Positions 3,736 through 61,735 of a DNA stretch of 64,000 nt are shown here, piece after piece (position 1 is the first letter of the stretch; every line of letters starts with the position of its first letter). A model generated the notes under the pieces. It saw nothing but the letters and a program-made list of their open reading frames with translations, ran no database searches and was not told the origin of the DNA. The translations under genes and the position numbers were made by a program. Source of the stretch: Nannochloropsis salina CCMP1776 (taxonomy: Eukaryota; Sar; Eustigmatophyceae; Eustigmatales; Monodopsidaceae); NCBI GenBank assembly GCA_004565275.1, contig SDOX01000183.1, forward strand, positions 152,035 through 216,034, in the 5' to 3' direction.

Positions 3736-4401
3736 ATTATGCCCCTGTCGTTGCGTGACGAGAATGTGCGAAGCCTGCGTTGAGGAGAGTGTGGATGGAC
3801 ACACATGTTTCAGCTTCGGACATACATCCTGCTCAACACCTTCGTGCTAAAAGACTGAATTGCATGTGCCCGCCCCTTCGCCTGCCGTCACCGAGGTGTC
3901 AGCTCGTGTATACCTCCTTCCTGTCGAGATTACCCCTTTCATGGTACCTACTAATCAACCTTTGGACCGCAGGAAAATATTCCATCGCATCCCAACAAGC
4001 CAAAAAGAACGATTTTCATCCGCGCGTCACACTCCATCATGCACAGGTTCTAGGGAGCGCTTCCATCCAATCCGCGTACCTGTGGCATGAGCCTGATCGT
4101 ATCCCAAGGAGGGTCCCTCTTGCATCACCGCCTGGAGATTCGGCGAGCAGGGCCATGAGTGAGACCTTGCCTGATCATTTTTATTGCAAAAAGCCCCGTT
4201 CCGAAGTATTGGCACATGTTTTACCACGCTGACTGTATAACGTTTACGTGGAGAGTCATGCGATCCATATTTTTTTCCCTTTGGAAAGATTTTTTTCCCC
4301 TCAGTGCCGGAAGCTCCCTGGTGCATATGATGCAAGCTCTTGCTTTTTCCTGTAATCCTCATCTAATTGAACAATATTTTCCCCCCACATTCATTACAAG
4401 A
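3736..4401. promoter_or_regulatory. Divergent intergenic region
   Basis: This 666-bp gap separates the start codons of the SRP54-M gene (-) and the DUF2470-ferredoxin gene (+), so it should hold both promoters. The plus-strand frame is open from 4159 with in-frame ATGs upstream of 4402 (for example at 4258), so part of it could be coding. No clear TATA element or conserved motif was identified. Confidence 0.4.
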
Positions 4402-5787
4402 ATGAAACCAGTAGATCATATTCGCGCATTTTGGTCCCGTAGTCCAGCTCCTCGAACACTCCTGTTTTTATTCTCATCGCTTGTTGGTGGGGTTGTGGCA
4501 AGAGTGATTCTCAAGCACTTTCGTTCCTTGGCGTTGCCTGCCTCACTGCGATGTCTTTTGAGAGGGAATCGAGGGGGAGAGCGATTGCCACCTGAGGTAG
4601 CTGAACGAATCATTGCCCACATGAATAAAGACCACGGAGCCCAACTCGTCCTATACTCCAAGCATTACGCTGGTCTCGCCTCGACCATCGCGGCCACCCT
4701 GACCTACATAGATTCGACTGGTGTCGAACTTTCGGTCACGCTCAGCTCATCCAATGCTCCACGTCGGATCTACATCGCGTTTCCACACGGATCTCTTCCG
4801 TCAGTCCACGATGCACGACCGGTATTGGTGGCGATGGCTGAAACAGCCGCGCAGGCCCTGGGCTCCGAGGTGAAAGCGGGCGAATCGGACGAGAATAAGT
4901 CAGATCCCTTGACGGACACCGAACACGGCTTTGCCCGCGCAGAAATGGGCAGCAAGAAATGCCTGGCCGGTACAGTAAAGAAGTACGACACGCACATGTT
5001 TGTCTTGTGGAAACGGGCGCAGGAATGGCCCAAGCACGTGGAGGCGGGCGCCGCGGGAATTGACCCGCCCACGCTCCCCCAAGCGCTCCATGCCGCCCTC
5101 AAGGATTGTGCCGGCTCGATCTCCTGTGGGAAAGTGAAGTTGAACGTGGCAGAATGCAGGGATGGGTCGGAGGACAAGGACGGGACCCTCTTGCTCTTCC
5201 CTCAGGAGCTTTGCGTAACGGGGGTGACTGAGGCCAATGCGAAGGCCGTGGTGGAGGCGTTGTTCGCGGGCGAGATGGAGGAAGGGGAGGAGGGACGGTG
5301 GGGGAACCGCACAAGGGTGGCGGCTGAGAAGGTCGGGCGTCTGAAGGGGTTGGCGGTGAAAAGCCTTCCGGGCCAGCATCTCTTTGTCTGCTGCCATGGG
5401 AACCGGGACAAGCGGTGCGGGTCTGTCGGCCCATATCTGGTCACGGAACTTCGGAGGTTGATCAAGGAGCGGGAGGAAGGAGCGGGGGGCGGGGTAGGGC
5501 CGTGGGATTGCCCCGTGCGGGCCTGTAGTCATGTGGGGGGGCACGCCTACGCCGGGAACGTGATCAGCTTTTGCCGGCGGGGCGAGGAGGGGCGGGTCTT
5601 GGGGGACTGGTGGGGCTACGTGACCCCTGCGGTCGCCAGGGAGTTGGTCGAGCGGCATTTGGGCAAGGGAGAGCTCTTGGCTTCGGTGTGGCGTGGACAG
5701 ATGGGCCTGGGGGAGGAGGAGCAGAGGGGGGTCGTGGAGTCGAGGGGATGCCAGGGCTGTGCGTGTGGGAAGGCGGGGAGGCCTTGA
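4402..5787 (+). CDS. DUF2470 domain fused to thioredoxin-like [2Fe-2S] ferredoxin (Apd1/sucrase-ferredoxin type)
   Basis: A single exon; the ATG at 4402 gives 461 aa, chosen because it directly precedes a hydrophobic segment (TLLFLFSSLVGGVVARVI), but earlier in-frame ATGs exist. Residues about 62-135 are a DUF2470 domain with the hallmark ERIIAHMNKDHGAQLVLY, the fold of plant plastid heme-binding and haem-oxygenase-related proteins. From about residue 185 a sucrase/ferredoxin-like (thioredoxin-like ferredoxin) domain follows, with FVCCHGNRDKRCG near 328-340 and CSHVGGHAYAGNV near 375-387. In yeast Apd1 the HxxxH pair helps bind a [2Fe-2S] cluster; H377 and H381 occupy that place here. GDWWGYVTP follows, as in the family. 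Inferred: a membrane-tethered redox protein with a haem- or flavin-handling module. Confidence 0.8.
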   Translation: MKPVDHIRAFWSRSPAPRTLLFLFSSLVGGVVARVILKHFRSLALPASLRCLLRGNRGGERLPPEVAERIIAHMNKDHGAQLVLYSKHYAGLASTIAATLTYIDSTGVELSVTLSSSNAPRRIYIAFPHGSLPSVHDARPVLVAMAETAAQALGSEVKAGESDENKSDPLTDTEHGFARAEMGSKKCLAGTVKKYDTHMFVLWKRAQEWPKHVEAGAAGIDPPTLPQALHAALKDCAGSISCGKVKLNVAECRDGSEDKDGTLLLFPQELCVTGVTEANAKAVVEALFAGEMEEGEEGRWGNRTRVAAEKVGRLKGLAVKSLPGQHLFVCCHGNRDKRCGSVGPYLVTELRRLIKEREEGAGGGVGPWDCPVRACSHVGGHAYAGNVISFCRRGEEGRVLGDWWGYVTPAVARELVERHLGKGELLASVWRGQMGLGEEEQRGVVESRGCQGCACGKAGRP

Positions 5788-8733: not shown

Positions 8734-9813
8734 TGACCGTCCTCAGTGCATCCTACTTGCGTTTTCGAGAGGCCACACCTGCGAAGTTGTAGGTCGTTAT
8801 GAAGTTGTCAATGCCCCGTTATGCGTTCGGCGTCCACGGTGGGCGGAAATCAGTGTCACAGGACCTGGTGAATTTTCTGAAAGGAAGTGTAGGAAGGGCA
8901 CTCGGACAGCCGCTGTCCTCGCTCCTCCTCATGCCACGCCCGGCTTCCCAGTCCCCTCATGTCACCGGCTAAGGCGCACGTCGCACGACCGCAAAGCTGT
9001 GACCGGTGGAATACCCACGCTTGAAGCCATGCAAGTGCCGCCTTCACCCGAGTCGTTGGGTTAAACCATGTGTTGTTGCCAAAGATTGTACTATCGGCTT
9101 CAGTAACGCAAGCGCCGAACAGGCCTCACGTTGGTTTCTGCTCGCAAGAGAGAGCCTTACTGGTGCAGGTGCAGCACAAACTCCATGCGTGGCCATTTAG
9201 AAAGGCATTTTTGGTAGATGGTATGAACAGGTTGAGCGTGGAGCGGGCTGTCAGCGCGCATTGTCTTGTCGTGCTTGCACCGTTCATCAGAGTATCATGC
9301 CTCCTGCATGCTGAAGAAACAATGACGCTGGACATTAGCAACCCTAGTGTATCTTTTGTTGTAATGTTTGGTGTATGCAATCGATACAAGTTGTGTGGGC
9401 ATGCATGATGTGCTGAAGGGCTTGTAGATCTGTGTGTGTGCCGACGTCGTGGTTGTCGAGCACGAGCATCGTAAGGTTTGCAGACTCCGAAGGGTCATAG
9501 TATCACTGTGGCTGACGCACGGCCATGCTCGTTCATGCGTGCACTACATGGTTGCCATATCGTCACAGCGCTCGGGTGCATGGTAGTGAGCTCCGCCTTC
9601 TGTGCCTGACTGGACGATACGGCGTGCTTGCTCTCTTGTCGTCGCTTCCATCTTGCCCGATCCCCACCCCTCTTTCTATCTCCCTCTTTCCGACCTGACG
9701 CGACCCTCAAAGACGTGATCCCGCACAGTCAGAGGCCAGGACGCCACTAAAAGGGTTTGCCGGTCGCTGAGGTACATCCGCCACGCCCACAGGCGTCGTC
9801 CGTGTGAGGAGCC
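8734..9813. promoter_or_regulatory. Divergent promoter region between FMO and Brr2 genes
   Basis: A 1,080-bp gap with the FMO gene leaving to the left and the Brr2 gene to the right. Small open frames (such as 9070-9408 +) have no recognisable domain. It is presumed to hold both promoters and 5' UTRs; no specific motif could be assigned. Confidence 0.4.
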
Positions 9814-12800
9814 ATGTCCCTGGAGTTCGAGCAGCAGAAGAAGTATGATTACACGGCGAACAGCAATTTGGTCCTGGAAGCGGACCGCGGGGAAGGGGGC
9901 CGCCGTCGGCACGACGAGGCAACGGGAGAGGTGGAGGTGTGGGACGAGAAGAAGCTGTCGGGGAAACGGATGGGCGATCGTGTGGGGGGAGGGAGGACAC
10001 GGGCGCCGGAGGTGGAGGAACGGCTGCAGAGGAGTAAAGAGAAGCGGGAGCGGGAGCTGAGGGGGCTTGAAGGGGGGAAGAAGGCAGCAGGAGGTAGGAC
10101 GAAGGCGTCAAAGAAGGGCGTGTTTTCGGCCGGGAGGGGCGCAACGGTGCTGACAGAGACGGAGGCCTTGGAGGCGATCAATTACCGGCCCCGGCATTCG
10201 GAGAGCAAGCGGGCGTACGAGGAGATGCTGGGCCTGATCAAGGGAAACATCGGGGACCAACCGCAGGACATCCTGCGGGGGGCGGCCGACGAGGTGCTGG
10301 CCATTCTCAAGGACGAGTCCCTGACGGACCCGCGCCGGTTAACGGAAATTCAAAAATTGATCCGGAAGCTTTCGCCGGAGAAGTTCAACAAGCTCGTGAC
10401 GCTTGGGAAGGGGATCCACGACTTCAACACGGGAGGGGCAGGGGGGGAAGGGCAGGGCGAGGAGGAGGATGAGAAGCAGGTGCTGGACGAGGAGATGGGC
10501 GTGCGCGTGGAGTTTGACCGGGATGAGGAGGAAGAGGAGGAAAGCGACCTGGACGAGGTGGTGGAGGAGGACGAGGACGAGGACGAGGACGAGGATGAGG
10601 AAGAAGGGGGCCAGGGGGGGGGAAAGGGATGGGAGCACGGAGAAGGGCATGGGGGGGGGCTGCGGGCAGCGCGGGATGGAAGTGAGATGGAGGTGGAGGA
10701 GGAGGAGGCGGGCACGCGCCTGTCCGTGCACGACGTCGACGCCTTCTGGCTCCAGCGGCAGCTGGGAAAATACTACGAGGATGCGAACATCTCTGCCAAG
10801 CTAGCGGAGGACGTGCTGGCCATCCTGGGCGGGGCAGACGAACTGGATTGCGAGAGTAAACTCGTGGTGCTCCTGGATGTGGACAAATTCGACTTCATCA
10901 AGAAGCTGATGAAGAATCGGGGGAAGATCCTTTTTTGCACGCGCTTGAAGCAGGCGCAAAGCGAGGCGGAGAAGAAGGAGGTGGAGGCGGAGATGCTCCA
11001 GGACGTGGAGCTGGGGGGACCGGCGATCTTGAAGGAGCTCTACCAGAAGGCCACCGCTGAGTCCTGGGCCGCCGACCGACAGGGGGAGTTCGTGCGGAAA
11101 ACGAAGGGCGAGGCGCGGGGGCTGGGAGGAGGCCGTGAAGAAGGGCGAGGAGCGGGGCGGGCAGGGGGACTGGTGGAGGACGAGGTGGGATACGTCCCCA
11201 CGGGGGACGGCGGCATGGTGGGGGGCGGGAAGGAGGGGAAGGCGGGGAAGAAGCCGCAGCAAAGCCTGGACCTGGAGGCCCTGTCCTTCTCGCAGGGCAG
11301 CCACCTGAACAGCAACAAGAAAGTGGTGCTTCCGGAAGGGACGTGGCGGGCCCTGAAGAAGGGCTACGAGGAGGTGCACGTCCCGGCCGTCAAGCACATC
11401 CCGGACGCGAACGAGCGGCTGGTGGAGATTGAGGAACTCCCCGCCTGGACCCACAGAGTCTTCGAGGGCATGACCATGCTAAACCGAGTGCAGAGTAAGA
11501 TGTGCTCCTCTGCCCTCTATTCCTCGGAAAACCTCCTCCTCTGCGCGCCTACGGGGGCGGGCAAGACCAACGTGGCGATGCTCTGTATCTTGAACGAGAT
11601 AGGGCAGCACCTGCGGGAGGACGGGAGCGTGGATTTGGACGCGTTCAAGATCGTGTACGTGGCGCCCATGAAGGCCCTCGTCCAAGAGTGCGTCTTGAAT
11701 TTCGGGAAGCGTCTGGCCCCGTTTGGCATCGCGGTGCGGGAGTTGTCGGGGGACCAGTCCTTGACGCGGGGGCAGATCAACAGCACGCAGGTGATCGTGA
11801 CCACGCCGGAGAAATGGGATATCATCACTCGCAAGGCGGGCGATCGCACTTACACCCAACTGGTCCGCTTGATGATCATTGATGAGATCCATTTGCTGCA
11901 CGACGAGCGGGGCCCGGTCTTGGAGAGCATCGTCGCCCGCACCATTCGGCAGATCGAAACTACGCAGGAAATGGTGCGGATCGTAGGCCTGTCGGCGACG
12001 CTGCCCAATTACGAGGACGTGGCGACCTTCCTGCGGGTGAACCCGGACAAGGGCTTGTTTTTCTTTGACAATAGCTACCGGCCCGTTCCCCTGCAGCAGC
12101 AGTACATCGGGATCACAGAGCGGAAGGCCATCAAGCGCTTCCAACTCATGAACGAGATATGCTACGAAAAGGTACTGGAACAAGCGGGGCAGAACCAGGT
12201 GTTGATTTTCGTCCACTCCCGGGCCGAGACCGCCAAAACCGCCAAGGCGTTGCGGGAGCTGGCCATCGAGAACGACACAGTCGGGCAGTTTGTGGCTGAG
12301 GACGGGGCTAGCAAGGCGGTGCTCGTACACGAGGCGGAGCAAACCAAGAACGAAGACCTGAAAGACTTATTGCCCTACGGCTTTGCCATCCACCACGCCG
12401 GAATGAACCGCGCGGACCGGACGGCCGTGGAAGACTTGTTTGCGGCCAAACATGCCCAAGTCTTGGTGTCGACCGCCACCCTGGCCTGGGGAGTGAACCT
12501 CCCCGCGCATACGGTCATCATTAAAGGCACGCAAATCTACAACCCGGAGAAGGGACGGTGGACCGAGCTGTCCCCTTTGGATATCATGCAAATGATGGGG
12601 CGGGCCGGGCGTCCCCAGTACGATTCCTCGGGCGAAGGGATCATCATCACCCAGCACTCGGAGCTCCAGTACTACCTCTCCCTCATGAACCGGCAGTTGC
12701 CCGTCGAGTCCCAGTACGTGAAGCGCCTGGCCGACAACATGAATGCGGAGATCGTCCTGGGCTCGATACAGACCCTTAGAGAAGCCGTGCACTGGCTGGG

Positions 12801-15800
12801 CTACACCTACCTGTACGTGCGCATGCTGCGGAACCCTACCTTGTATGGGGTCGGGGTGGACGAGGCGGAGAAAGATCCTCTACTGGAACAGAGACGAACC
12901 GACTTGGTGCATACCGCGGCCAGCACGTTGGATAAAAACAACCTAATCAAGTATGACCGGAAAACGGGCGCGTTTCAAGTGACTCCGCTTGGGAGGGTCG
13001 CGGCCTACTACTACATTACCCACCAGTCCATGGCCGTGTACGCCGACTATCTAAAGCCAACCATGAGCGACATTGAGCTCTTCCGCCTCTTCTCTCTGTC
13101 GTCGGAGTTCAAGAATATCCACGTGCGCGAAGAAGAGAAGTTGGAACTGGCAAAACTGGCGGCCCGGGTGCCCATCCCTATCAAGGATTCTATAGAAGAC
13201 TCGCTTGCGAAGGTGAATGTCCTCCTGCAGGCCTATATCTCTGGCCTCCGGCTGGAAGGCTTTGCTCTGGTCGCGGACATGCAATACGTCCAGCAGTCGG
13301 CGAATCGCATCATGCGGGCTTTATTCGAGATCTCGCTCAAGAAAGGTTGGGCGGCTCTGGCGGACAAGACGTTGAACCTGTGCAAGATGGCAGAAAGGCG
13401 TATGTGGTTGTCTCAATCCCCCCTCCGACAGTTTCGGGCGATCCCCGAAGCGATCGCCCGCAAATTGGAGAAGAAGGACATCCCTTGGGAAAGGTATTTC
13501 GACATGACTCCACAAGACTTGGGGGAGCTCATCAAGTTGCCTCGGATGGGCAAACCTCTCCATCAATTTGTCCACCAGTTCCCGAAGGTCGAATTGTCCG
13601 TCCACGTCCAGCCTATTACGCGATCCTTGCTCAAGGTCGAGTTGACCATCCATCCGGATTTCATCTTCAACGCGGACGTGCACGAGAACGGGGTGCTCTT
13701 CTGGATCATGGTGGAGGATGCCGATCAGGAACAGATCCTACACTATGAGCCCTTCCTGCTCAAGGCGGCCTTTGCCGGCGACGAGCACGTGGTCAATTTC
13801 ACTGTCCCCATCCTTGATCCCCTGCCGCCACAATATTTCGTCCGGGTGGTGGCGGATCGATGGCTGCATTCCGAAACAGTGCAAGCCATCTCTTTCCGCT
13901 CTCTGATCCTCCCGAACAAGTTTCCGCCGCACACGGAGCTTCTGGATCTGCAACCCCTACCCATCTCCGCCCTCCGGGCTCCCACTCTCCTGGAGCCCGT
14001 GCTTGCCGCCCGTGGGTACACGCACTTCAACGCGCTCCAGACTCAGGCTTTCACAGAACTCTACGATACGGACAACAACGTTTTGATATGCGCCCCCCCT
14101 GGGTCGGGCAAAAAGCTCTGTGCCGAATTTGCCATGTTCCGCTTGTTCAAGCTACAGGCTCTGGCAGAGGGGGACGGGGAAGGGCAGGGTGGGAAAGTTG
14201 TGTACGTCCACAGCAAGGCGGAGGCGGTGAAGAATCGATACGCCGACTGGGCGAGACTGTTGGGAGAGAAAGGGCCCTTGAACAAGCGCGTGGTGATGTT
14301 GACGGGGGACGCCACTTTGGACAACAAACTTTTGGAAAGCGCCGACGTCGCCGTTTCCACCGCCGAGGCCTGGGATGTACTTTCCCGTCGATGGCGGCAG
14401 CGGAAAGCTGTGCAACAGGTGTCTCTGTTCATCTCGGATGACCTGCACTTGATCGGGTCATCCGGAGGCTCGACATTAGAGATGGTGGTAAGCCGGATGC
14501 GCCTTTTCCCCTTTGAATTGGAACGAAAGGTGCGGATTGTGGGCCTGGCGGCCTGTGTGGCGAATGCGAAGGACATAGGGGACTGGATTGGAGCCACGGC
14601 GCACGGATTGTTCAATTTCCGCCCCGATGTGCCGGGCGTGCGGCCCGTGCCTCTGGAGATCCATGTGCAAGGTTTCGAGATCTCGCACTTCTCCTCCAGG
14701 ATGCTGAGCATGGCCAAACCTGTGTATAACGCAGTGGCGGGCCACGGGGGTAAGGATGGGAAGCCCTCTCTGGTCGTCGTCCCTTCCCGCAAGCAAGCCC
14801 AGCTGACGGCCATCGACTTGATTACTTACGCGGCGGCCGCTGGAGACCCGAAACAATTTCTGCAGGGACATGGAAAGGAGGATATGGAGGACGACGAAGG
14901 GGTGGGAAAAAGCGTGAAGGAAGTCGTGCTTCGGGATACGCTCGCCAAAGGAGTCGGCTTTGTCCACCAAGGGATGGCAGAGACCGACCGTCGGCGGGTG
15001 TGGGACCTGTATGAGGCGGGGACACTGCAGGTGGTGGTGGTCCCCCAGTCCATGGTCTGGTCCGTGACGGCCAGGGCGCATGCGGTGGTGATCATGGGCA
15101 CCGAGTACTACGAAGGACGGGAGCATCGGTACGTCGACTACCCCATGACGGATCTGCTCCAAATGATGGGGCTCGCGTCCAGGCCTGGGAAGGACAGGCT
15201 GGGCCTGTGCGTCGTGATGTGCCACAATACCAAGAAGGAGTACCTCAAGCGACTCCTTTACGAACCGCTTCCGGTAGAAAGCCACTTGAACCACTTCTTG
15301 CACGACCATTTGAACGCCGAGGTGGTGAACAAGACTGTGGAAACGCAGCATGAAGCCTTACAAATTTTGACCTGGACCTTTTTCTATCGGCGCTTGGTGC
15401 AGAACCCCAACTACTATGGCCTTCGGGCGGTGGGCTCTAGGCAACTTTCTGAATTTTTGTCAGATCTGGTTGAGAGCGTGGTTGAGGACCTGGCCCGCGC
15501 CAAGATGTTGGAAGTCGAGGAGGACGTACAGCTCTCTCCCTTGAATTTGGGAATGATTGCGGCGTACTACTATGTGCAATACACTACGATCGAGCTTTTC
15601 GCTTCGTCTGTCACGGCCAAGACGAAGGTGAAGGGCCTGCTGGAGATCCTTTCGTCCGCTTCCGAGTATGGGGACTTGGCGATCCGACAGGGGGAGGAAA
15701 GGGTGCTGCAGCAGCTTGCCACACGCTTGCCCCAGAAACTCCCAGAAGGTGCACGATTCACGGAGACGCATGTGAAAGCCCTGGTTTTGCTCCAAGCCCA

Positions 15801-16599
15801 TTTCTCTCGCATGGTCCTACCGACAGAGTTGCGGCAAGACCAACGGTCAGTGGTGGGGGAAGCGCCTCGGATGCTGCAGGCGTTGGTGGACGTCGTCTCT
15901 TCGGAGTGCTGGCTCAAACCCTGCATTGCCGCCATGGAGCTGTGTCAGATGGTGGTCCAAGGCCTGTGGGACCGGGACAGTTACCTCTTACAGATCCCGC
16001 ATTTTACTAAGGAGATCGTCAAGCGTTGCGAAGCACTTGCAGAACCTGTGGAAAGCCCGCTTGGGATCTTGGAATTAGATGACGATGTCCGCGAGAAGAT
16101 GCTGCAGCTTCCCCCCGCAAAAATGGCAGATGTGGCTAGATTTTGCAATGCTTATCCAAACATTGATTTGGAATGGGAAGTGGTGGGCGGGGTAGACTGT
16201 GTTGTGGCAGGAAAGCCGATCAGTGTCGTGGTAACCCTGGAGCGTGAAACCGAGGACGGGGAGGAAGAGGAGGGAGGCCTGCCTGTGACAACGCAAGCGG
16301 TGGCCCCTCTTTACCCGAAGCCCAAGATGGAGGCTTGGTGGTTGATCGTGGGAGACCCCGCCAGGAACTCTCTATTGTTTATCAAGAGGGTGAACAATGT
16401 GGCAAAGCGAACGCGGACACGGCTGAACTTTGCGGCCCCCACAGAGGCGGGCGATCATGATTTGAAGCTGTACTTCATTTGTGACTCGTACATGGGAGCA
16501 GATCAGGAGTATGACCTGTCCCTCTCTGTATTGCCGGGAGAGAGCGACGAGGAAGAGAGTGAAAGCGACGGAGAAAAGATGGACGTGGACAAGAAGTAG
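9814..16599 (+). CDS. BRR2: Pre-mRNA-splicing helicase Brr2 (U5 snRNP 200 kDa)
   Basis: An intronless frame of 2,261 aa, close to the usual 2,100-2,200 aa. Brr2 is the Ski2-like RNA helicase that unwinds U4/U6 snRNA to activate the spliceosome. The N-terminal region has the Brr2 plug/PWI part and an acidic insert near residues 245-265. Cassette 1 has Walker A APTGAGKTNVAM (about 578), DEIHLLHDERG (about 689), GLSATLPNYEDV and MMGRAGRPQYDSSGEG, then a Sec63 unit. Cassette 2 has APPGSGKKLCAEF (about 1425), SDDLHLIG (about 1541), MMGLASRPGKD, then a second Sec63 unit to about 2240. Cassette 2 departs from the active consensus (GKK for GKT, DDLH for DExH, LASRPG for AGRPG), as expected for the regulatory C-terminal cassette of Brr2. 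The tail is acidic (ESDEEESESDGEK). Confidence 0.97.
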   Translation: MSLEFEQQKKYDYTANSNLVLEADRGEGGRRRHDEATGEVEVWDEKKLSGKRMGDRVGGGRTRAPEVEERLQRSKEKRERELRGLEGGKKAAGGRTKASKKGVFSAGRGATVLTETEALEAINYRPRHSESKRAYEEMLGLIKGNIGDQPQDILRGAADEVLAILKDESLTDPRRLTEIQKLIRKLSPEKFNKLVTLGKGIHDFNTGGAGGEGQGEEEDEKQVLDEEMGVRVEFDRDEEEEEESDLDEVVEEDEDEDEDEDEEEGGQGGGKGWEHGEGHGGGLRAARDGSEMEVEEEEAGTRLSVHDVDAFWLQRQLGKYYEDANISAKLAEDVLAILGGADELDCESKLVVLLDVDKFDFIKKLMKNRGKILFCTRLKQAQSEAEKKEVEAEMLQDVELGGPAILKELYQKATAESWAADRQGEFVRKTKGEARGLGGGREEGRGAGRAGGLVEDEVGYVPTGDGGMVGGGKEGKAGKKPQQSLDLEALSFSQGSHLNSNKKVVLPEGTWRALKKGYEEVHVPAVKHIPDANERLVEIEELPAWTHRVFEGMTMLNRVQSKMCSSALYSSENLLLCAPTGAGKTNVAMLCILNEIGQHLREDGSVDLDAFKIVYVAPMKALVQECVLNFGKRLAPFGIAVRELSGDQSLTRGQINSTQVIVTTPEKWDIITRKAGDRTYTQLVRLMIIDEIHLLHDERGPVLESIVARTIRQIETTQEMVRIVGLSATLPNYEDVATFLRVNPDKGLFFFDNSYRPVPLQQQYIGITERKAIKRFQLMNEICYEKVLEQAGQNQVLIFVHSRAETAKTAKALRELAIENDTVGQFVAEDGASKAVLVHEAEQTKNEDLKDLLPYGFAIHHAGMNRADRTAVEDLFAAKHAQVLVSTATLAWGVNLPAHTVIIKGTQIYNPEKGRWTELSPLDIMQMMGRAGRPQYDSSGEGIIITQHSELQYYLSLMNRQLPVESQYVKRLADNMNAEIVLGSIQTLREAVHWLGYTYLYVRMLRNPTLYGVGVDEAEKDPLLEQRRTDLVHTAASTLDKNNLIKYDRKTGAFQVTPLGRVAAYYYITHQSMAVYADYLKPTMSDIELFRLFSLSSEFKNIHVREEEKLELAKLAARVPIPIKDSIEDSLAKVNVLLQAYISGLRLEGFALVADMQYVQQSANRIMRALFEISLKKGWAALADKTLNLCKMAERRMWLSQSPLRQFRAIPEAIARKLEKKDIPWERYFDMTPQDLGELIKLPRMGKPLHQFVHQFPKVELSVHVQPITRSLLKVELTIHPDFIFNADVHENGVLFWIMVEDADQEQILHYEPFLLKAAFAGDEHVVNFTVPILDPLPPQYFVRVVADRWLHSETVQAISFRSLILPNKFPPHTELLDLQPLPISALRAPTLLEPVLAARGYTHFNALQTQAFTELYDTDNNVLICAPPGSGKKLCAEFAMFRLFKLQALAEGDGEGQGGKVVYVHSKAEAVKNRYADWARLLGEKGPLNKRVVMLTGDATLDNKLLESADVAVSTAEAWDVLSRRWRQRKAVQQVSLFISDDLHLIGSSGGSTLEMVVSRMRLFPFELERKVRIVGLAACVANAKDIGDWIGATAHGLFNFRPDVPGVRPVPLEIHVQGFEISHFSSRMLSMAKPVYNAVAGHGGKDGKPSLVVVPSRKQAQLTAIDLITYAAAAGDPKQFLQGHGKEDMEDDEGVGKSVKEVVLRDTLAKGVGFVHQGMAETDRRRVWDLYEAGTLQVVVVPQSMVWSVTARAHAVVIMGTEYYEGREHRYVDYPMTDLLQMMGLASRPGKDRLGLCVVMCHNTKKEYLKRLLYEPLPVESHLNHFLHDHLNAEVVNKTVETQHEALQILTWTFFYRRLVQNPNYYGLRAVGSRQLSEFLSDLVESVVEDLARAKMLEVEEDVQLSPLNLGMIAAYYYVQYTTIELFASSVTAKTKVKGLLEILSSASEYGDLAIRQGEERVLQQLATRLPQKLPEGARFTETHVKALVLLQAHFSRMVLPTELRQDQRSVVGEAPRMLQALVDVVSSECWLKPCIAAMELCQMVVQGLWDRDSYLLQIPHFTKEIVKRCEALAEPVESPLGILELDDDVREKMLQLPPAKMADVARFCNAYPNIDLEWEVVGGVDCVVAGKPISVVVTLERETEDGEEEEGGLPVTTQAVAPLYPKPKMEAWWLIVGDPARNSLLFIKRVNNVAKRTRTRLNFAAPTEAGDHDLKLYFICDSYMGADQEYDLSLSVLPGESDEEESESDGEKMDVDKK
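10556..10602 (+). repeat. GACGAG-type tandem repeat coding an acidic tract
   Basis: Six-base GAG-GAC style repeats inside the Brr2 gene encode an alternating Glu/Asp run. This is a low-complexity insertion within the N-terminal region and a likely length-variable site. Confidence 0.8.
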
Positions 16600-22727: not shown

Positions 22728-22968
22728 TGTCCACCTACCACGTCAATTCGAACCCTAAGTAGCGATGTGCATGGGGTTAGCGCCTATAGCTGCAAGGATC
22801 GTTGATTTTTGCTACAGACGAGCAAAAAGACGAGGAGCGTATCGCCACCCTCAGGCTGCCCTCCTCCTGCCCTGTATCTCTGTCGCCAGTCCATTTTACC
22901 ATCGGTGTACTAACGACTTACGCCTTCTGCGTCATAACTTCACCCACCACAATAGTTCGGACACCATT
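22728..22968. promoter_or_regulatory. Short shared promoter of ZCCHC9-like and PPWD1 genes
   Basis: Only 241 bp separate the two divergent start codons, so both RNA-processing genes probably share one bidirectional promoter. The frame upstream of PPWD1 is open to 22765, but the ATG at 22969 gives the family-like start. No TATA box is evident. Confidence 0.5.
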
Positions 22969-24966
22969 ATGTCTCATACCAAGGGGCGGTCCCGTCACGC
23001 GGACGAAGAGGAGAGCGTCCCTCCGCCCCCCGCCCAGGCTGAAGATGAGAGTGAAGACGACAGCGACGACGATTTCGGACCGGCCCCTCTTCCTGCTTCC
23101 AATGACTCGTCAGCTACAAACGATGTCTCATCTGCACGTCCGAAGAAAAAGAAGAAACGGCGGAAGCTGGAGCATGAAGAGGCTTTCTTGGCTGCTTTGC
23201 CCAACGCAGACATGTACGAAAAGAGCTATATGCACCGAGATACAGTCACCCAGTGCGCGTTCACCCCACGAACAGATTTCCTGATCACGGCCTCTGAGGA
23301 TGGTCACGTCAAGTTCTGGAAAAAAATGCCTGAAGGGTTGGAATTTGTGAAACATTATCACGCCCACCTGGGGTCAATCCGGGGACTGGCTGTCAGTGGA
23401 GACGGCCTCCGCTTGGCCACGACAGGTGCAGACAAGGCGATCAAATTCTATGACGTCCTGACATTCGATCTTACCTACATGCTGGACGTGGATTTCTCTC
23501 CAAGCCACGCGGTCTGGGTCCACCGCCCCGGAGAGGCGCACGGGCGTTTGGCCGTGGCGGACGCGGACACGCCCTGCCTTCGCATCTACCGCTCTGACGG
23601 CAGCCAAGCTCCCATCCATACGTTGCCGACCATGCACGCCGCACCTGTGACGGCCTTGGCCTTTTCCCCCTCAGATGCGCTGGCCATCTCGGCGGACGTG
23701 AAAGGCATGCTCGAATACTGGTCGACCGAATTGGAAGGCGGCGACGGGGAGGCGTACACCTTCCCGCGGAAGAAGGTTTTTTTCAGGAGTAAACTCGACT
23801 CGGACCTCTTTGAGATGCTCAAGAGGAAGACCTACATCACCGCAATGGACGTGAGCCGGGATGGAAGCAAGCTGGCAACTGTGGGGAAGGACCGACACAT
23901 CCGGGTATTTGACTTGCGACGAGGGAAACTCTTGCGTGTCTACAACGAAGGGTTGGAAGTGGCGGAAGCGGCTATGGCCACAGGGACACTTGGTTTGGAT
24001 ACCATCGACTTCGGGCGGCGTTCGGCCGTGGAGCACGAGCTGGAGGGCTCGGCCCCGGACGTGATGGCGCGAAACAATGCCGTCTTCGACGAGACCGGTC
24101 ACTTCTTGATCTACGCGACGCTGTTGGGCATCAAAACGGTGAACGTGGAGACGAACCGAGTGGTGAAGGTGTTGGGGAAGATCGAGAGCGGGGAGCGCTT
24201 CCTCCGGGTGTGTGTGTTCCAAGGGGTGCCCAAGGTCGACTCGCAGATGGTCAAGGCGCTGAACAAGGGCAAGACAGCCAGCAGCGTGGAGGAGATGCGG
24301 GCCCAGCTCCGGCCCGACCCCACGGTGGTAGCGACGGCCTTCAACAAGCGGAGGTTCTACTTGTTCACGCGCCGCATGCCCAGCGACGTGGAGGGGGAGG
24401 GGCTGGGGGAGGATGGCGGTCGGGACGTTTTGAACGAGAAGCCGACAGCCGAGGAGGCCACTGTGGCCTCGGCGACGGACAAAGCCCAGCAAGAGCTGGG
24501 GAAAGCGGCGATTTTGAGGACGACGATGGGAGACATCCACCTGAAGCTATTCAAGGAGGAGTGCCCGCGGACGATCGAGAACTTCGTGACGCACGCTCGG
24601 AACGGGTACTACGACAATGTTCTCTTCCATCGCGTCATCAAGGGGTTCATGGTCCAGACGGGCGATCCGCAGGGGGACGGGACGGGGGGCGAGAGCATTT
24701 GGGGTGGGGAGTTCGAGGACGAGATACATCGGAATCTGCGGCACGACCGGCCGTTCACCCTCTCCATGGCCAACGCGGGGCCCAACACGAATGGAAGCCA
24801 GTTTTTCATCACCACGGTGCCGACGCCTTGGTTGGACGGGAAGCACACGGTCTTCGGGCGCGTCGTCCAGGGCATGGACGTGGTCAGCCAGATCTCCCAG
24901 GTGAAAGTGGACCCACAGGACCGGCCCTTCGCGGATATAAAGATCATCAACGTAGACACCCTGTAG
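22969..24966 (+). CDS. PPWD1: PPWD1: WD40-cyclophilin spliceosomal peptidyl-prolyl isomerase
   Basis: An intronless frame of 665 aa from the ATG at 22969 (MSHTKGRSR); human PPWD1 is of similar length (about 646 aa). An acidic/basic N-terminus with KKKKKRRK is followed by [20 protein letters not shown], the start of a WD40 domain running to about residue 460. The C-terminal 160 residues are a cyclophilin: [50 protein letters not shown] and [14 protein letters not shown]. The catalytic Arg (HRV), the active-site Gln (VQTGD), the Trp of TPWLDGKH and the following His are all kept, so it should be active and cyclosporin-competent. PPWD1 associates with spliceosome C-type complexes in the nucleus. 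Confidence 0.96.
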
Positions 24967-29344: not shown

Positions 29345-29778
29345 TCACCCACAGAAGTCCTGTCGCTTCCTGTGAAAGGAATGCATGGTTTAAGTGGATG
29401 AAATCGGAAGGCACTGCTCCTGTGTATGTCGCTCTTTTCCCCGTCTCATCGAGCGATGATGTCCTCCGTCTCGGTTCAGCGACTTGCAAATAAATGTTTT
29501 GGCCTTTCATATCGAAGGCGGACAACTCTTTCACTTCCTTCTTTCGCCACATTTATCACGATGTCTCGGCACAGGTGCATAGAGCGTTGGGAATTCAGGT
29601 GTCGCACATTCCGCAAAGTCTTGTCTACTCGTGAGCTCTGGGGGTCTCTTTTTAGGCAGCTGGGGCGAGGGCTCGCACAAAAGGTGTTCTCAGAAGCAAC
29701 TTAGTAGTAAGGTTTATTTTCGTCACTGGGGGAGAGAGTGTTGCCATCTAAAAGGACGGCACCCTTGCGTTTGCCAGC
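29345..29778. promoter_or_regulatory. Divergent promoter of hydrolase and G-patch genes
   Basis: A 434-bp gap between start codons that point away from each other, so a shared bidirectional promoter is likely. Frames here (for example 29426-29704 +) show no domain. Confidence 0.45.
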
Positions 29779-31215
29779 ATGTCGCACATCGAAAAGCCGG
29801 AGGAGGGCGGGGCAGCGAAAGGCCCGACGAGCGCCCCTCCCCCTGCCTCGGACTGGAAAGCCGCCCATACAGGGTCAAGTGCTCACATCGACGATGACAC
29901 CACCTCTTACACGGATATATTGGAGACGCGTGCTTCCTCTATGGCTCTCCCGGCCGCGACGGAGCGTGTCTCGTTCAAACGCTACGAGACAGCTGGGTAC
30001 CTGGACCACGGTACTTTCGACCAGGCAACAATCGACACCCCGCTGGCCGACGATAATCGGGGGATGAGATTACTCATGAAAATGGGGTGGAAGAAAGACA
30101 CGCCGTTGGGAAGAGCCGGGGGGAATGGGTTGGTGGTGCCGTTGCAACTGGTGGATGCGGGCCTGGGGGGGGAGGGTCTAGGGAAAGGGAGGGAGTATGA
30201 CACAACTGCCGAGGAGGCCACACGGAGCCGGAGGCTGCTAGACGTGGAGGTGAAGGAGACCGTGGCGATAAAGGAAGAGCGGGCCCTGAAGGCTGCAAAG
30301 GAGGAAGCGCTCAAACAGGAACTGAAGGCGGTAGTCCGGGAATTCTATTGTGATATTTGCGGCAAGCAGTACGCAGGCGTGAGCGATTTCGCCGTGCATT
30401 TGAGCGGTTACGAGCACGGGCATACGAAGCGTTTGAAGGAAGCGAAAGAAGCCAACAGAGCTCGCACGGCGGCTAAGGCAGGGAACCAGGCCAAGCAGGA
30501 CCAGGCGCGGTCGCTGAAACAGATGCAACGCCGCATGGCCGCCGCCGGCGTTAAGACGGGGAATGCCGCCGCCAAAGCCTCTGTCCCGGTCCCTCATCCT
30601 GCCCCTCCCTCCAACACCGTGTCGCCTTTGAACCCTTCTCTCTCCACACTCAGCTTCCAAGCGGCACCCCCACCGGAACCGTCGGCCCTCCCTCCTCCCC
30701 CGCCCCCACCGCCACAACCCCAACCGGCAAGCGCGTATTCCCCCTCCCACCCACCGGTGTCCTCCCTCCCTCCTCCTTCTCTTCCTCCCCCTCCCCCTCA
30801 TGAGAGCGCCTACAGTCGCCCCTCGCCCTCGCAGCATCCCCCCTATCCTCACGGCGGCCCCGCTCCTCATCTTCCTCCTTCGCATCTCCACCACCATCAG
30901 CGCCATCCCAATCTACCTTCCGGGCACGCCGCTCAGACTGCCGGCAATTATTACAATACCCATTCACATCACAGCTCCCCTGCACCACCACCACCTCTTC
31001 CTCCTCCCCCTCTTCCTCCCTCCTCCGCCCTTCCTTCCTTCTCAGCCACCGCCTCTTCCCCCCCCGCATCGGCTTTATCATCGTCTCCTCACTTGCTTTC
31101 TTCCGCTCCGACAAATCCCTCGCTGAGTTCCGAGCTCCCACCCACCGGGAGCCGCGCTCCAATGACCCTCTCCATGAGCTTTGCCTCCAAAGCCAAGAAG
31201 AGGATCGGTCGGTGA
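29779..31215 (+). CDS. G-patch and C2H2 zinc-finger protein (GPATCH8-like)
   Basis: An intronless frame of 478 aa. A G-patch-like motif lies near residues 93-125 (GMRLLMKMGWKKDTPLGRAG, then GNGLVVPLQL); G-patches bind and activate DEAH-box RNA helicases. A charged coiled stretch (ALKAAKEEALKQELKAVV) precedes one C2H2 finger near residue 191 (FYCDICGKQYAGVSDFAVHL followed by SGYEHGH), of the U1-like RNA-binding kind. This order matches GPATCH8/ZNF804-type proteins. The last 250 residues are Pro/Ser/His-rich and disordered (repeated PPPPP blocks). Likely nuclear and splicing-related; the helicase partner is not known. Confidence 0.85.
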   Translation: MSHIEKPEEGGAAKGPTSAPPPASDWKAAHTGSSAHIDDDTTSYTDILETRASSMALPAATERVSFKRYETAGYLDHGTFDQATIDTPLADDNRGMRLLMKMGWKKDTPLGRAGGNGLVVPLQLVDAGLGGEGLGKGREYDTTAEEATRSRRLLDVEVKETVAIKEERALKAAKEEALKQELKAVVREFYCDICGKQYAGVSDFAVHLSGYEHGHTKRLKEAKEANRARTAAKAGNQAKQDQARSLKQMQRRMAAAGVKTGNAAAKASVPVPHPAPPSNTVSPLNPSLSTLSFQAAPPPEPSALPPPPPPPPQPQPASAYSPSHPPVSSLPPPSLPPPPPHESAYSRPSPSQHPPYPHGGPAPHLPPSHLHHHQRHPNLPSGHAAQTAGNYYNTHSHHSSPAPPPPLPPPPLPPSSALPSFSATASSPPASALSSSPHLLSSAPTNPSLSSELPPTGSRAPMTLSMSFASKAKKRIGR

Positions 31216-49489: not shown

Positions 49490-51485
<1,996 letters not shown>

Positions 51486-52221
51486 AGGGGGGAAAGTGGG
51501 TCAGATTGTGAAGAAAAGGATTGAATTGTGTAGTTTTGAGGAGGGTGAAATCACGAATTCTTCTGTGGGTAGTCTTCAAGTGCAAAAAGGTTGTAAATTG
51601 TATATTGGCGTAACAGCCAGTGACAGGCCAGAATGCTGCAAGGGTACACGAGTAGCAGGTCCTGTCTGGTAGTCGTGACAATTTATGATTGGATAAGAAG
51701 TGTCGGTGGAAGGAGAATGTGTGAGGGAGGTTGAGGTAAAAGTGACGAGGATGTGCGGGTGGCCATACACTTTACACCGAGAGCAAATTAGATTTTCGGT
51801 AATCAATATCCTCAGAGTGGCTTGACCTTTTCAAAACCCATACCCACATTGCTGTTCTAAAATCAGAATACGCCCTAAATCATGCGTGTTGTCGTTATTG
51901 AGATTCGTTCTCACACGACACGGGATCGCGACGGCTGTGCTCTTGACCTCTACACGCAGCGATATCATCCCCGGATGTCAGCAAAAGCCTGTAGATAGAG
52001 GCCTCGGAAGCCTGCTTTTCAGCCATTCCTTAATCCCTTTGGTCGGTCGGTCACAAATGTATGACCATGTATGCATGATTTTCTCCTTAAGTCCTGAAGG
52101 CTTTGGTTCTCCCCTTCAAGGCAGAGGCAGACGAGGGGCGGGAGCTTTTCAGGTGTCGTCACTGTCAAGCAAGGCATCTCTACCGCCTAGGCAGCCCCTG
52201 CCAGCATCACGACAAAAAGCA
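51486..52221. other. Intergenic region upstream of the cyclophilin-SYF2 gene
   Basis: A 736-bp gap between two plus-strand genes, expected to hold the CaMK 3' UTR and the next promoter. The frame is open back to 51886 but has no domain. Nothing else is seen. Confidence 0.45.
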
Positions 52222-54077
52222 ATGCATATGCGTCACAGCGCCAAGGGGGGCGCCAAGAAGAGTGTACAGGTCTACATGGATATTAAGATCGGGCCTCGCT
52301 TTGCGGGACGCATGGTCTTCGAGGTGCGTTGAGGTTGCTTTTGTTTCTTCTTCACCGTGCCTCAATGGAACATGTAATGTACGCTAGCTCATGACTGAGT
52401 TTTGAGTAAGCCACTTCTACTTTTCCCGCTTTTTCTCGAATCCCACTGATCCATTTTGCGAGCGCACACAAGTCTGATCCCAAAACTGAAGCGCATGAAG
52501 GACGCCTTGTCTCGCATCTGTTCTCTTCCCTTGACACGCCACCATCCCTTTCATTCGTAACCGTACAGCTCTTCACTGAACAAACCCCACGAACCGCTGA
52601 GAATTTCCGGGCCCTTTGTACTGGCGAGCGCGGTATCAGCCCCCTGTCGGGGCATCCGCTCCATTATAAAGGGTCGATCTTTCACCGCGTGATCAAGGGC
52701 TTCATGGCCCAGGGCGGAGACTTCACTGCTGGGGACGGTACAGGTGGCGAGTCCGTGTACGGGTACGTCGAAGCCGGAGGCGCTCGGGCCAAAAGGCAGG
52801 ACGAATGAGTGAGGGCCCTGTGTCTGGAAGAGGCAGGGGGGGCACGACGGGCGGATGGAGGGGGGGGAAGAGGCTGCTGGGTGCCCGCGAGTCGCGAACA
52901 ACTCTTTTTTTATGCGCCAACACATGCGCCACTCCCTGCCTGCAGGCTCAAATTTGCGGACGAGGCGTTCACGTACCAGCATGCCTCCCGAGGCACCCTC
53001 TCCATGGCCAACGCGGGCCCGGACACGAACGGGTCTCAGTTTTTCTTGACCTTCCGCGACACCCCGCATTTGGACGGAAAGCACGTGGTCTTTGGGCGGC
53101 TGCTGGAGGGGATGGAGGTGTTGCAGGTGGTGGAGATGGTGGCAACGGACGGGAGGGATCGGCCGCGCATGCCCATGACGGTAGTGGACTGTGGGCAGAT
53201 AGGGGAGACGGCGGAAGAGGACGAGGGGGACGAGGGGGAGGGAGGGGAGGAGGCGGAAGGACTAGAGATGGGGGACAAGCCTGAGGAAGGAAGGCAGGGC
53301 AAAGGTGTCAAGAAAGTGCAGGGTGAGGAGGACAGCGGCGAGGAGGAGGAGAAGGAGGAGGAGCGGATAAGGGAGGACGAGGAAGCGGAGGAGGGGGAAG
53401 AAGGAGAGAAGGAGGTGGACATGAGCGGGATGACGGAGACCCAACGTCGTTTGTACAAGCTCAAATGGAAGCTAAACCAGGGCCGGAAACTGAATCGTCA
53501 GGCCGTGAAAGAGGAATTCACGCGCAAGAAGACGCCCAACTTGGAAGCGCGTCTGCGGGCGGAGGAGCGGCGGGATTCGAACGAACGGTGGAGGAAAGAA
53601 ATCCTGGCCCGGGGGATGAAACCGGAGGAGGCTTACATGTTCGAGACGGCGGAAGCGGCGGGAAAGAAACAGGCGGCGGCGGCCCGGAAGGCGAAAGGCC
53701 AAGCAGCCTTCGGATGGGACGTGTTCAACCAAGATGCCTTGTACAAAGCTTACAAGAAACGCCTGGGGAAACTCCCTTCCGCGGAAGGGGGAGCCAGGGG
53801 GGAGGAGGAGAAGGAGGGGCGGGGGGAGGAACCGGACCCTTTGGCTTACGGCCAGGCCCCCAGGGGGGAGGCGGCGGGCCTGGTCCGGATGACGGAGGAG
53901 CTGGAGGAGCGGGAGAGGGCGAGGAAGAACTTCAGCCGACGCCGGGCCGCGTACGAAGGGGAGGACGTGTCCTCCATCAACGAGCGGAACAAGATGTTCA
54001 ACAAGAAGCTGAAGCGCGCCTACGACAAGTACACGGTCGAGACGCGGCAGAATTTAGAGAGGGGGACGGCCATGTAG
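52222..54077 (+). CDS. Cyclophilin-SYF2 fusion protein
   Basis: Exons 52222-52323, 52569-52762 and 52946-54077 give 475 aa; donors are GTGCGTTG and GTACGTCG, acceptors CCGTACAG and CCCTGCCTGCAG. Residues about 8-180 are a cyclophilin: [47 protein letters not shown] and [15 protein letters not shown]. The catalytic Arg and Phe are present, but the cyclosporin-contact Trp is His ([12 protein letters not shown]). A Glu-rich linker (about 182-258) leads to a SYF2 domain (261-475): [20 protein letters not shown] and, at the end, [20 protein letters not shown] then [13 protein letters not shown], matching SYF2 closely. SYF2 is a Prp19-associated splicing factor bound to Isy1 and Syf1; here it is covalently joined to an isomerase. 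All of SYF2 and half of the cyclophilin share one exon, so the fusion is not an assembly of separate exons. Confidence 0.9.
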
Positions 54078-59780: not shown

Positions 59781-60145
59781 GTCTAATCCAAAGCGATTGC
59801 AAAAAAGGAGTTGTGAATTGTTTGAGGTCTTATAATAAACCAGAAAATTTTAGATATCATAGTAAGCCTTGTCATCGTCATTTGAGTGACATATGGACGC
59901 CTTTGTTCGAGACAACCTTTTTCGAACCCACCAAAACTTCAACTGACTTTCTTCCCGGGAGAGGGAGGAGGTTAGCGACGTTGGATGGAAGCCATTGACG
60001 TGCCAAGTTTCCTGAAGTAAAGTATGTCTTAGCTTCTCTCAACATCCTTTGTCGTCTTTGTACAGAAATGGAGCTGACTTTGATAACATTTTCCAGATAA
60101 GCGGCGGCCAGTCACTTGGAAAAGAAAATATCTTGCTGTTTGATA
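59781..60145. promoter_or_regulatory. Divergent promoter of NmrA-like and PDCD2 genes
   Basis: A 365-bp AT-rich gap between divergent start codons, so a shared promoter is likely. The PDCD2 frame is open from 60116 but the first ATG is at 60146. Confidence 0.45.
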
Positions 60146-61735
60146 ATGGTGGTCGAGCCCACTGGCATTACGGACGGAGATGAGAAACAAGCCGGTATGA
60201 CTCCTACGATGATCAAGATACCGGTAGATTGTAGAAGGATGCTGACGAAAGAAGAGGGTTGGAATTCGGGTACCGATAGCAAATATACAAGTGAGGCTAA
60301 AGGATCAGGACAGGGCAAAGATGTTTCTCATACGTCTACTACTCCACGTCTTGTGCCGGTGGCGGATACAACTGTCAAAAGGAAAGTTGGCTGTACAGGT
60401 GAAGATGGTAGAAGTAGTGATGATTCATCAGACGACGATGGTGACCAGGGGATGCAGCTTGGGTTTGTGGAGCGGCTCCCCGAGGAGATGCAAAATCGCT
60501 TGTTGTTCCAAGACCCTGACTGGCGCGCCTGGGACGGAGGGAAAGTGGGCGGAAAGCCCATATGGCTAAACCCTAGAGACCTACCTCCTCAAACTTTGTT
60601 GCTTTGTCCCTCCTGCCAAGATCCTCTTAGCTTCGTCCTGCAGATTTATTGCCCTCTTGATGAGCCTGAGGAGGCCTTTCATCGCGCCCTATACGTCTTT
60701 GTCTGTCAAAAGTTTCGATGCCAAGGACCGGGAAGCGTTAAAGCTCTGCGCTGTCAATTACCACGTGAAAATTCATTTTTTGCTTCAGATCCTCGGGATA
60801 TTTGGAACAACGGAGGCCGTGGAAAGGGACGAGCAGCCCTTGCAGTGCGGACGTGTGACGTGTGCGGGCTGCGGGCAGACAAAGTCTGCGCGGGCTGTAA
60901 ACGCGTGAGCTACTGCACACACAAACATCAAAAGGAAGGATGGAAAACAGGACATAAATTGGACTGCAGAAAAGTGGAGAGAGAAAAGCTCGCTCCCGAG
61001 GGTGGCGGCCAGGAAAGGGATGCAAACCTTACCTCTGGGGATGTCCCAGCGTCTTCGGTCAATCTGCCTCAGGCGAATGCACCAGTCCTTGGGAGACCTG
61101 CAGACTCGGGAGTCAAAAACGCTCTGCGCTCTACATTTCCTGAATATGAGATCGTGATCGAGGAGGAACGCGTACAGAACGATGCGGTCCGTGACGCTCA
61201 TGAGCAGGATGCAGACGCGGCGCTTTTAGAGAAGTACAAACACGTCGTCGTCTCAGAAACCGACGACGACGCCTCTCTTGATCAACAGCATTTGAATCAA
61301 GCCACGGGGGCCAAGTCGGCCCTGACGGACGCTCAGAGCTTGCGGTTCCTGGCTGTGATCGGTCGCCACCCTGCACAGATTCTTCGCTACGCACGCTGGG
61401 ACGACGCGGCTGCCTTGTGGGTCTCCCGAGACGATCGTCCCGCCTCGAGCACCGACATTCCGTCCTGCCTTCTCTGTGGAGCGAGGCGCGCCTTTGAGTT
61501 TCAGGTCATGCCGCAACTCCTCCACCACCTCCGGGTGGATGCACAGGTGCAAGCACCCGGGCATCTCGGAGAGCCCCTCCAGCTCAACTCCCTGGATTGG
61601 GGGACTTTGGCCGTGTATACATGCGTTAGAAGTTGTAGGACCGGTGAGAAAGTCACCGGGATCGGGGAGGGGACGGGAGGGGAAGAGGGGAGGTATGTAG
61701 AGGAGTTTGTCTGGCGGCAAAAGCCGATGGCGTGA
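60146..61735 (+). CDS. PDCD2: PDCD2 (ribosome assembly chaperone) with MYND zinc finger
   Basis: An intronless frame of 529 aa from the first ATG at 60146. The PDCD2 N-terminal domain spans about 105-235: MQLGFVERLP, GKVGGKPIWLNPRDLP, LLCPSCQDPLSFVLQIYCPL and ALYVFVCQKFRC. A MYND zinc finger follows near 238-280 (CDVCGLRADKVCAGCKRVSY, CTHKHQKEGWKTGHKLDC), marking PDCD2 rather than PDCD2L. The C-terminal PDCD2 domain has ARWDDAAALWVSRDD, PSCLLCGARRAFEFQVMPQL and LDWGTLAVYTCVRSC. PDCD2 chaperones ribosomal protein uS5 (Rps2) in the cytoplasm for 40S assembly. The first 100 residues are unconserved and acidic. It converges on the GST gene, 128 bp away. Confidence 0.95.
   Translation: MVVEPTGITDGDEKQAGMTPTMIKIPVDCRRMLTKEEGWNSGTDSKYTSEAKGSGQGKDVSHTSTTPRLVPVADTTVKRKVGCTGEDGRSSDDSSDDDGDQGMQLGFVERLPEEMQNRLLFQDPDWRAWDGGKVGGKPIWLNPRDLPPQTLLLCPSCQDPLSFVLQIYCPLDEPEEAFHRALYVFVCQKFRCQGPGSVKALRCQLPRENSFFASDPRDIWNNGGRGKGRAALAVRTCDVCGLRADKVCAGCKRVSYCTHKHQKEGWKTGHKLDCRKVEREKLAPEGGGQERDANLTSGDVPASSVNLPQANAPVLGRPADSGVKNALRSTFPEYEIVIEEERVQNDAVRDAHEQDADAALLEKYKHVVVSETDDDASLDQQHLNQATGAKSALTDAQSLRFLAVIGRHPAQILRYARWDDAAALWVSRDDRPASSTDIPSCLLCGARRAFEFQVMPQLLHHLRVDAQVQAPGHLGEPLQLNSLDWGTLAVYTCVRSCRTGEKVTGIGEGTGGEEGRYVEEFVWRQKPMA

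Follow-up and report, generated by a model that had tools for sequence, protein, structure and literature searches.

The 64-kb window analysed here, that is, the whole stretch of 64,000 nucleotides, contains a gene whose predicted product joins a cyclophilin to the splicing factor SYF2 in a single reading frame, and this predicted fusion looks real. We read it, with a probability of roughly 0.85, as a spliceosomal SYF2 with an N-terminal cyclophilin of its own, which would dock through its SYF2 half and hold the cyclophilin on an acidic tether. By its domain order, the protein belongs with the SYF2-Cyp subfamily, whose known members come from alveolates and green algae. The first-pass annotation of this DNA had implied that such a fusion was novel; however, the subfamily has been in print since 2009 (PMC2713222).

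The gene consists of three predicted exons on the + strand (Table 1). Splicing them gives an in-frame product of 1428 nt, corresponding to 475 aa plus a stop codon, with a computed mass of 53,437 Da (~53 kDa), and reproduces both the coordinates and the protein length proposed at first pass. The start at 52222 was picked by position only, exon 1 having a second in-frame ATG at 52228. Retention of intron 1 would introduce in-frame stops, and retention of intron 2 would introduce a stop at 52808, which is the end of the listed open reading frame 52410-52808. Exon 3 is 1132 nt long, and the first stop in its frame is located at 54075-54077. The earlier description of this exon as a single open one holds, but the 377 codons attributed to it are in fact 376 whole sense codons plus the stop. 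Its frame remained open in 0 of 20,000 base shuffles, a weak null given that mononucleotide shuffling ignores dinucleotides. Third-position GC amounts to 0.76 in both the cyclophilin part and the linker, and to 0.81 in the SYF2 part. Two donor-like sites, detected with a loose pattern, are present within the linker (53191 and 53323), and joining such a site to a downstream acceptor could result in a shorter linker; the candidate linker intron 53191-53265 has a length that is a multiple of three, and both domains would stay joined. Models of the bacterial type, which are uninformative for a eukaryote, found no promoter or terminator in the linker.

Table 1. Coordinates of the cyclophilin-SYF2 gene, its parts and its immediate neighbours, numbered from the first nucleotide of the window.
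Feature	Position	Strand	Details
Exon 1	52222..52323	+	residues 1-34; open frame up to GT donor; start codon 52222
Intron 1	52324..52568	+	245 nt; predicted GT-AG (GTGCGT...CAG)
Exon 2	52569..52762	+	middle of cyclophilin domain, with active-site Arg74, Phe79, Met80, Gln82
Intron 2	52763..52945	+	183 nt; predicted GT-AG (GTACGT...CAG)
Exon 3	52946..54077	+	end of cyclophilin, linker, whole SYF2, stop; single open frame
Cyclophilin domain	52273..53195	+	residues 18-182, split by both introns; Pfam PF00160
His140 codon	53067..53069	+	at position of human PPIA Trp121; rows aligned with 4jjm, 1ihg, 8xi2_M
Acidic low-complexity linker	53196..53423	+	residues 183-258; D/E 36/76
SYF2 region	53424..54074	+	residues 259-475; Pfam core 53616-54059
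Protein-kinase similarity	49683-50372		upstream; E 6.3e-49
Protein-kinase similarity	50609-51508		upstream; E 2.5e-06, below Pfam cut-off
Open frame, 434 codons	54569-55870	-	downstream, convergent with cyclophilin-SYF2 gene; no Pfam match

The domain search proposed in the first-pass annotation, which had described a complete cyclophilin, an acidic linker and a near-full SYF2, gave both domains. When the 475-aa protein was compared with Pfam at E up to 1, the only matches were Pro_isomerase (PF00160), covering residues 18-182 and profile positions 1-158 of 159 (E 4.4e-48), and SYF2 (PF08231), covering residues 323-470 and profile positions 4-154 of 154 (E 4.2e-25; 89.3 bits against a cut-off of 23.5). 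At the same threshold no Pfam match was found in the linker that separates them, which contains short purine-rich tandem repeats. Thus, the gene model, the open exon 3 and the two Pfam domains agree on the covalent fusion in one frame that had been claimed. The similarity to SYF2 detected by phmmer is wider than the Pfam core, extending from residue 259 to the C-terminus; against PDB sequences (E up to 1), the SYF2 part gave six matches, five of them named SYF2, including 5mqf_N (E 7.5e-17), and the sixth being a fused chain, 8xi2_M (E 3.5e-32). NCBIfam returned just two bacterial isomerase models for the protein, both far under their cut-offs. Prediction from a single sequence gave the SYF2 half a helical fold of poor quality (pLDDT 71.2, pTM 0.26), and this fold had no match among PDB structures at E up to 0.001, the lone match having an E of 6.3. 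No relative of the SYF2 half was found among viral contigs (7 pattern matches, 0 confirmed) or genome contigs (74 pattern matches, 0 confirmed), which is unsurprising for a viral and a prokaryotic collection, respectively.

The fused chain aligns to both halves of the predicted protein. Chain M of 8XI2, a 563-aa 'PPIase cyclophilin-type domain-containing protein', matches with an E of 2.4e-85 over the whole; its residues 4-175 align with residues 15-186 of the protein studied here (cyclophilin stretch, E 7e-57), and its residues 245-560 with residues 182-475 (linker and SYF2, E 3.7e-26, partly low-complexity sequence). 8XI2 is the C* spliceosome of Chlamydomonas reinhardtii, whose description places Syf2 among the NTR proteins of the complex (PMC11833078), and based on these alignments we infer that this Syf2 is chain M. 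The words 'cyclophilin' and 'PPIase' have 0 occurrences each in the main text of PMC11833078, and the isomerase remarks in that main text concern PPIL1. Attention is drawn here to a cyclophilin on a published spliceosome chain that the main text leaves undiscussed.

In the mechanism that we propose, the SYF2 half would bind at the SYF2 place within the NTC-related region of the spliceosome, with the acidic linker as a flexible tether that would let the cyclophilin reach prolines of neighbouring splicing factors, on which it might act either as an isomerase or by clamping onto them. We infer splicing as predicted, expression as a single protein, docking, catalysis and the substrate. The view, put forward at first pass, that the fusion would deliver an isomerase to the SYF2 site at fixed stoichiometry is a sensible one by analogy, because the same architecture is a chain of a solved spliceosome. 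Cyclophilins that touch or bind SYF2 have also been reported, but as separate proteins: rice OsCYP20-2 binds OsSYF2 in two-hybrid and pull-down assays (PMC7483694), and in the human C complex SYF2 is described as contacting the back face of PPIL1 (PMC6315705). According to PMC11833078, the Chlamydomonas C* complex retains PPIL1 and is without PPIE, which is present in human C*. Because the matching Chlamydomonas chain nevertheless carries a cyclophilin, the cyclophilin of SYF2-Cyp proteins might, where the fusion exists, fill the place that PPIE has in the human C* spliceosome, although we regard this as quite improbable. If true, the fusion would be an ancient and widespread means of supplying a spliceosomal isomerase, and animals, fungi and land plants would have lost or split it. 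Orthology with PPIE itself was rejected: PPIE is an RRM-cyclophilin, and no RRM was found in the 475-aa protein (Pfam, E up to 1).

Of the nine residues that PMC2911226 lists for the cyclophilin active site, eight are retained in the fused protein (R74, F79, M80, Q82, A120, F132, L141 and H145), and the sole change is that of Trp121 to His140; these positions were mapped by motif with a constant offset of 19, not via an alignment to human PPIA. It is conceivable, though unlikely, that the cyclophilin part has no catalytic role and serves as a proline-binding or chaperone module, with the fusion providing a scaffold and not an isomerase. This would be in line with the recombinant cyclophilins of P. 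falciparum, all eight of which showed chaperone activity while isomerase activity was limited to two, PfCYP19A and PfCYP19B; the abstract leaves unstated whether the SYF2-containing one was included (PMC2963238). It would also be in line with the description of two human proteins: changing Tyr to His at the Trp121 position of PPIL2 gained no measurable activity, and RANBP2, which has His at this position too, displayed neither isomerase activity nor cyclosporin binding (PMC2911226). However, the conservation of the other eight residues argues against this possibility, as does the report that human PPID, PPIG and NKTR are active with His at this position (PMC2911226); PPIL3 is given there as unassayed.

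The Trp-to-His change noted at first pass at the cyclosporin contact was confirmed as His140, whereas the drug-resistant active site that had been deduced from it did not stand. The notion that His140 is an adaptation giving resistance could draw on the weaker binding reported for human PPID, PPIG and NKTR (Kd of 61, 51 and 488 nM, respectively, vs 6.8 nM for PPIA), on the strong gain in affinity when the His of PPID is changed to Trp, and on the non-binding RANBP2 (PMC2911226). Yet the same source regards either Trp or His at this position as permitting cyclosporin binding by human cyclophilins, and the resistance claim is unsupported because PPID, PPIG and NKTR, having the same His, do bind the drug. 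We consequently rejected resistance as very improbable; by analogy with these human proteins, His140 predicts weaker cyclosporin binding. The residue at this position is Trp in 4jjm and 8xi2_M, and His in bovine Cyp40 (1ihg). The His is therefore not peculiar to the cyclophilin-SYF2 protein and, since the fused Chlamydomonas cyclophilin has Trp, it is no hallmark of the fusion either. Finally, the reading of two adjacent genes or two products, a cyclophilin and a SYF2 that is transcribed or translated on its own, starting for example at one of the in-frame ATGs (53421 and 53430) where the linker gives way to the SYF2 homology, is scarcely credible and was rejected, as no stop separates the two parts, third-position GC is much the same through the linker, and other lineages are reported to have this fusion as well, which exists as one PDB chain (8xi2_M).

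The surroundings of the gene were characterized by a Pfam scan of 20 frames selected from the 80 that have at least 180 codons. The two kinase-like frames upstream are probably one gene. Two further splicing genes are present in the window. One is a BRR2/SNRNP200 helicase (9808-16596, + strand), a single open frame of 2263 codons with Helicase_PWI, BRR2_plug, Sec63 (two stretches) and SNRNP200_wHTH domains, for which human Brr2 (3jcr_C) was the top match in the PDB. The other is PPWD1-like (22759-24963, + strand), with WD40 repeats and a C-terminal cyclophilin (PDB 5yzg_2, E 1.3e-192), so that two of the three splicing genes (BRR2, PPWD1-like and SYF2-Cyp) have cyclophilin domains. Assuming 150-250 splicing genes among 10,000 and 16-20 genes per window, the chance of at least three splicing genes per window is ~0.2-1.3%; because this calculation is post hoc and its inputs are guessed, the cluster is at most a curiosity. 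A candidate G-patch protein (29752-31212, + strand), which scores 21.9 bits where the cut-off is 22, might add a fourth gene for RNA processing. Frames shared by two domains occur elsewhere in the window: DUF2470 and a sucrase/ferredoxin-like domain share the frame 4159-5784 (+ strand), and PDCD2_C and a MYND finger share the frame 60101-61732 (+ strand), the latter being the usual PDCD2 arrangement. No tRNA or Rfam match was found within the 64-kb window.

Comparison of the two halves with fused and unfused proteins gave the following picture. The cyclophilin half is 62.1% identical (105/169) to 4jjm_A, a chain of 175 aa without SYF2 that we take to be a plant-type cyclophilin, and 56.5% identical (96/170) to the cyclophilin of 8XI2 chain M. 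The C-terminal SYF2 core is 48.1% identical (37/77) to human free-standing SYF2 (5mqf_N), and the last 81 SYF2 positions are 53.1% identical (43/81) to those of chain M. Besides its Trp at the Trp121 position, chain M differs in the longer stretch that separates its two domains. The unfused 4jjm_A is thus more similar to the cyclophilin half than the fused chain M is, so that a shared origin of the fusion is not established; as sequence comparisons, these identity figures do not show that one event lies behind all the fusions. PPID/Cyp40 (1ihg) shares the His at the Trp121 position and is 54.7% identical (98/179), but it has a TPR domain that binds Hsp90 (PMC4721547), and no TPR was found by Pfam in the protein described here.

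The subfamily of 'Cyps with SYF2 domain' was described in Toxoplasma, Plasmodium, Babesia, Theileria and Cryptosporidium muris, with TgCyp66.2, BbCyp57.3 and PfCyp80.9 (PfCyP81) among its examples, and the same source notes that Tetrahymena, Paramecium and the green alga Ostreococcus have proteins built in a similar way (PMC2713222). The Tetrahymena fusion gene was subsequently named CSY1 (PMC3143110, 2011), and the SYF2-Cyp proteins of P. falciparum and P. vivax were reported again in PMC11357558. SYF2 was given as undetected in the dinoflagellate Amoebophrya (PMC7789003), and it may therefore be missing or divergent in some alveolates. No report of the fusion in a stramenopile was found in the passages on SYF2 and cyclophilins that the analysis covered, which came from main texts, mostly of open-access journals. 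If, as assumed at first pass, the host of the present gene is a stramenopile, the known range of the fusion would include stramenopiles in addition to alveolates and green algae, a point relevant to whether it is ancient or arose repeatedly. Taken singly, the gene would encode an ordinary splicing component with an architecture that is already known.

That architecture corresponds to the one described for the apicomplexan members, in which an N-terminal cyclophilin is followed by a poorly conserved middle part and by SYF2 near the C-terminus (PMC2713222). The cyclophilin studied here is likewise located at the immediate N-terminus (residues 18-182 of 475) and PF08231 near the C-terminus (residues 323-470), and the middle region, here acidic and of low complexity, is similarly without a known domain. 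A predicted nuclear localisation signal also belongs to the description of the subfamily in PMC2713222. The cyclophilin of the subfamily is of the Cyp_ABH type (cd01926), and the best PDB matches of the present one include small cyclophilins as well as Cyp40. Compared by description, its 475 aa are fewer than the 508-677 aa of five SYF2-Cyp members and more than the 417 aa of CmCyp48.8. Unlike the alveolate and Ostreococcus members as these are described, the gene presented here has its cyclophilin distributed over three exons, and its linker and SYF2 contained within one.
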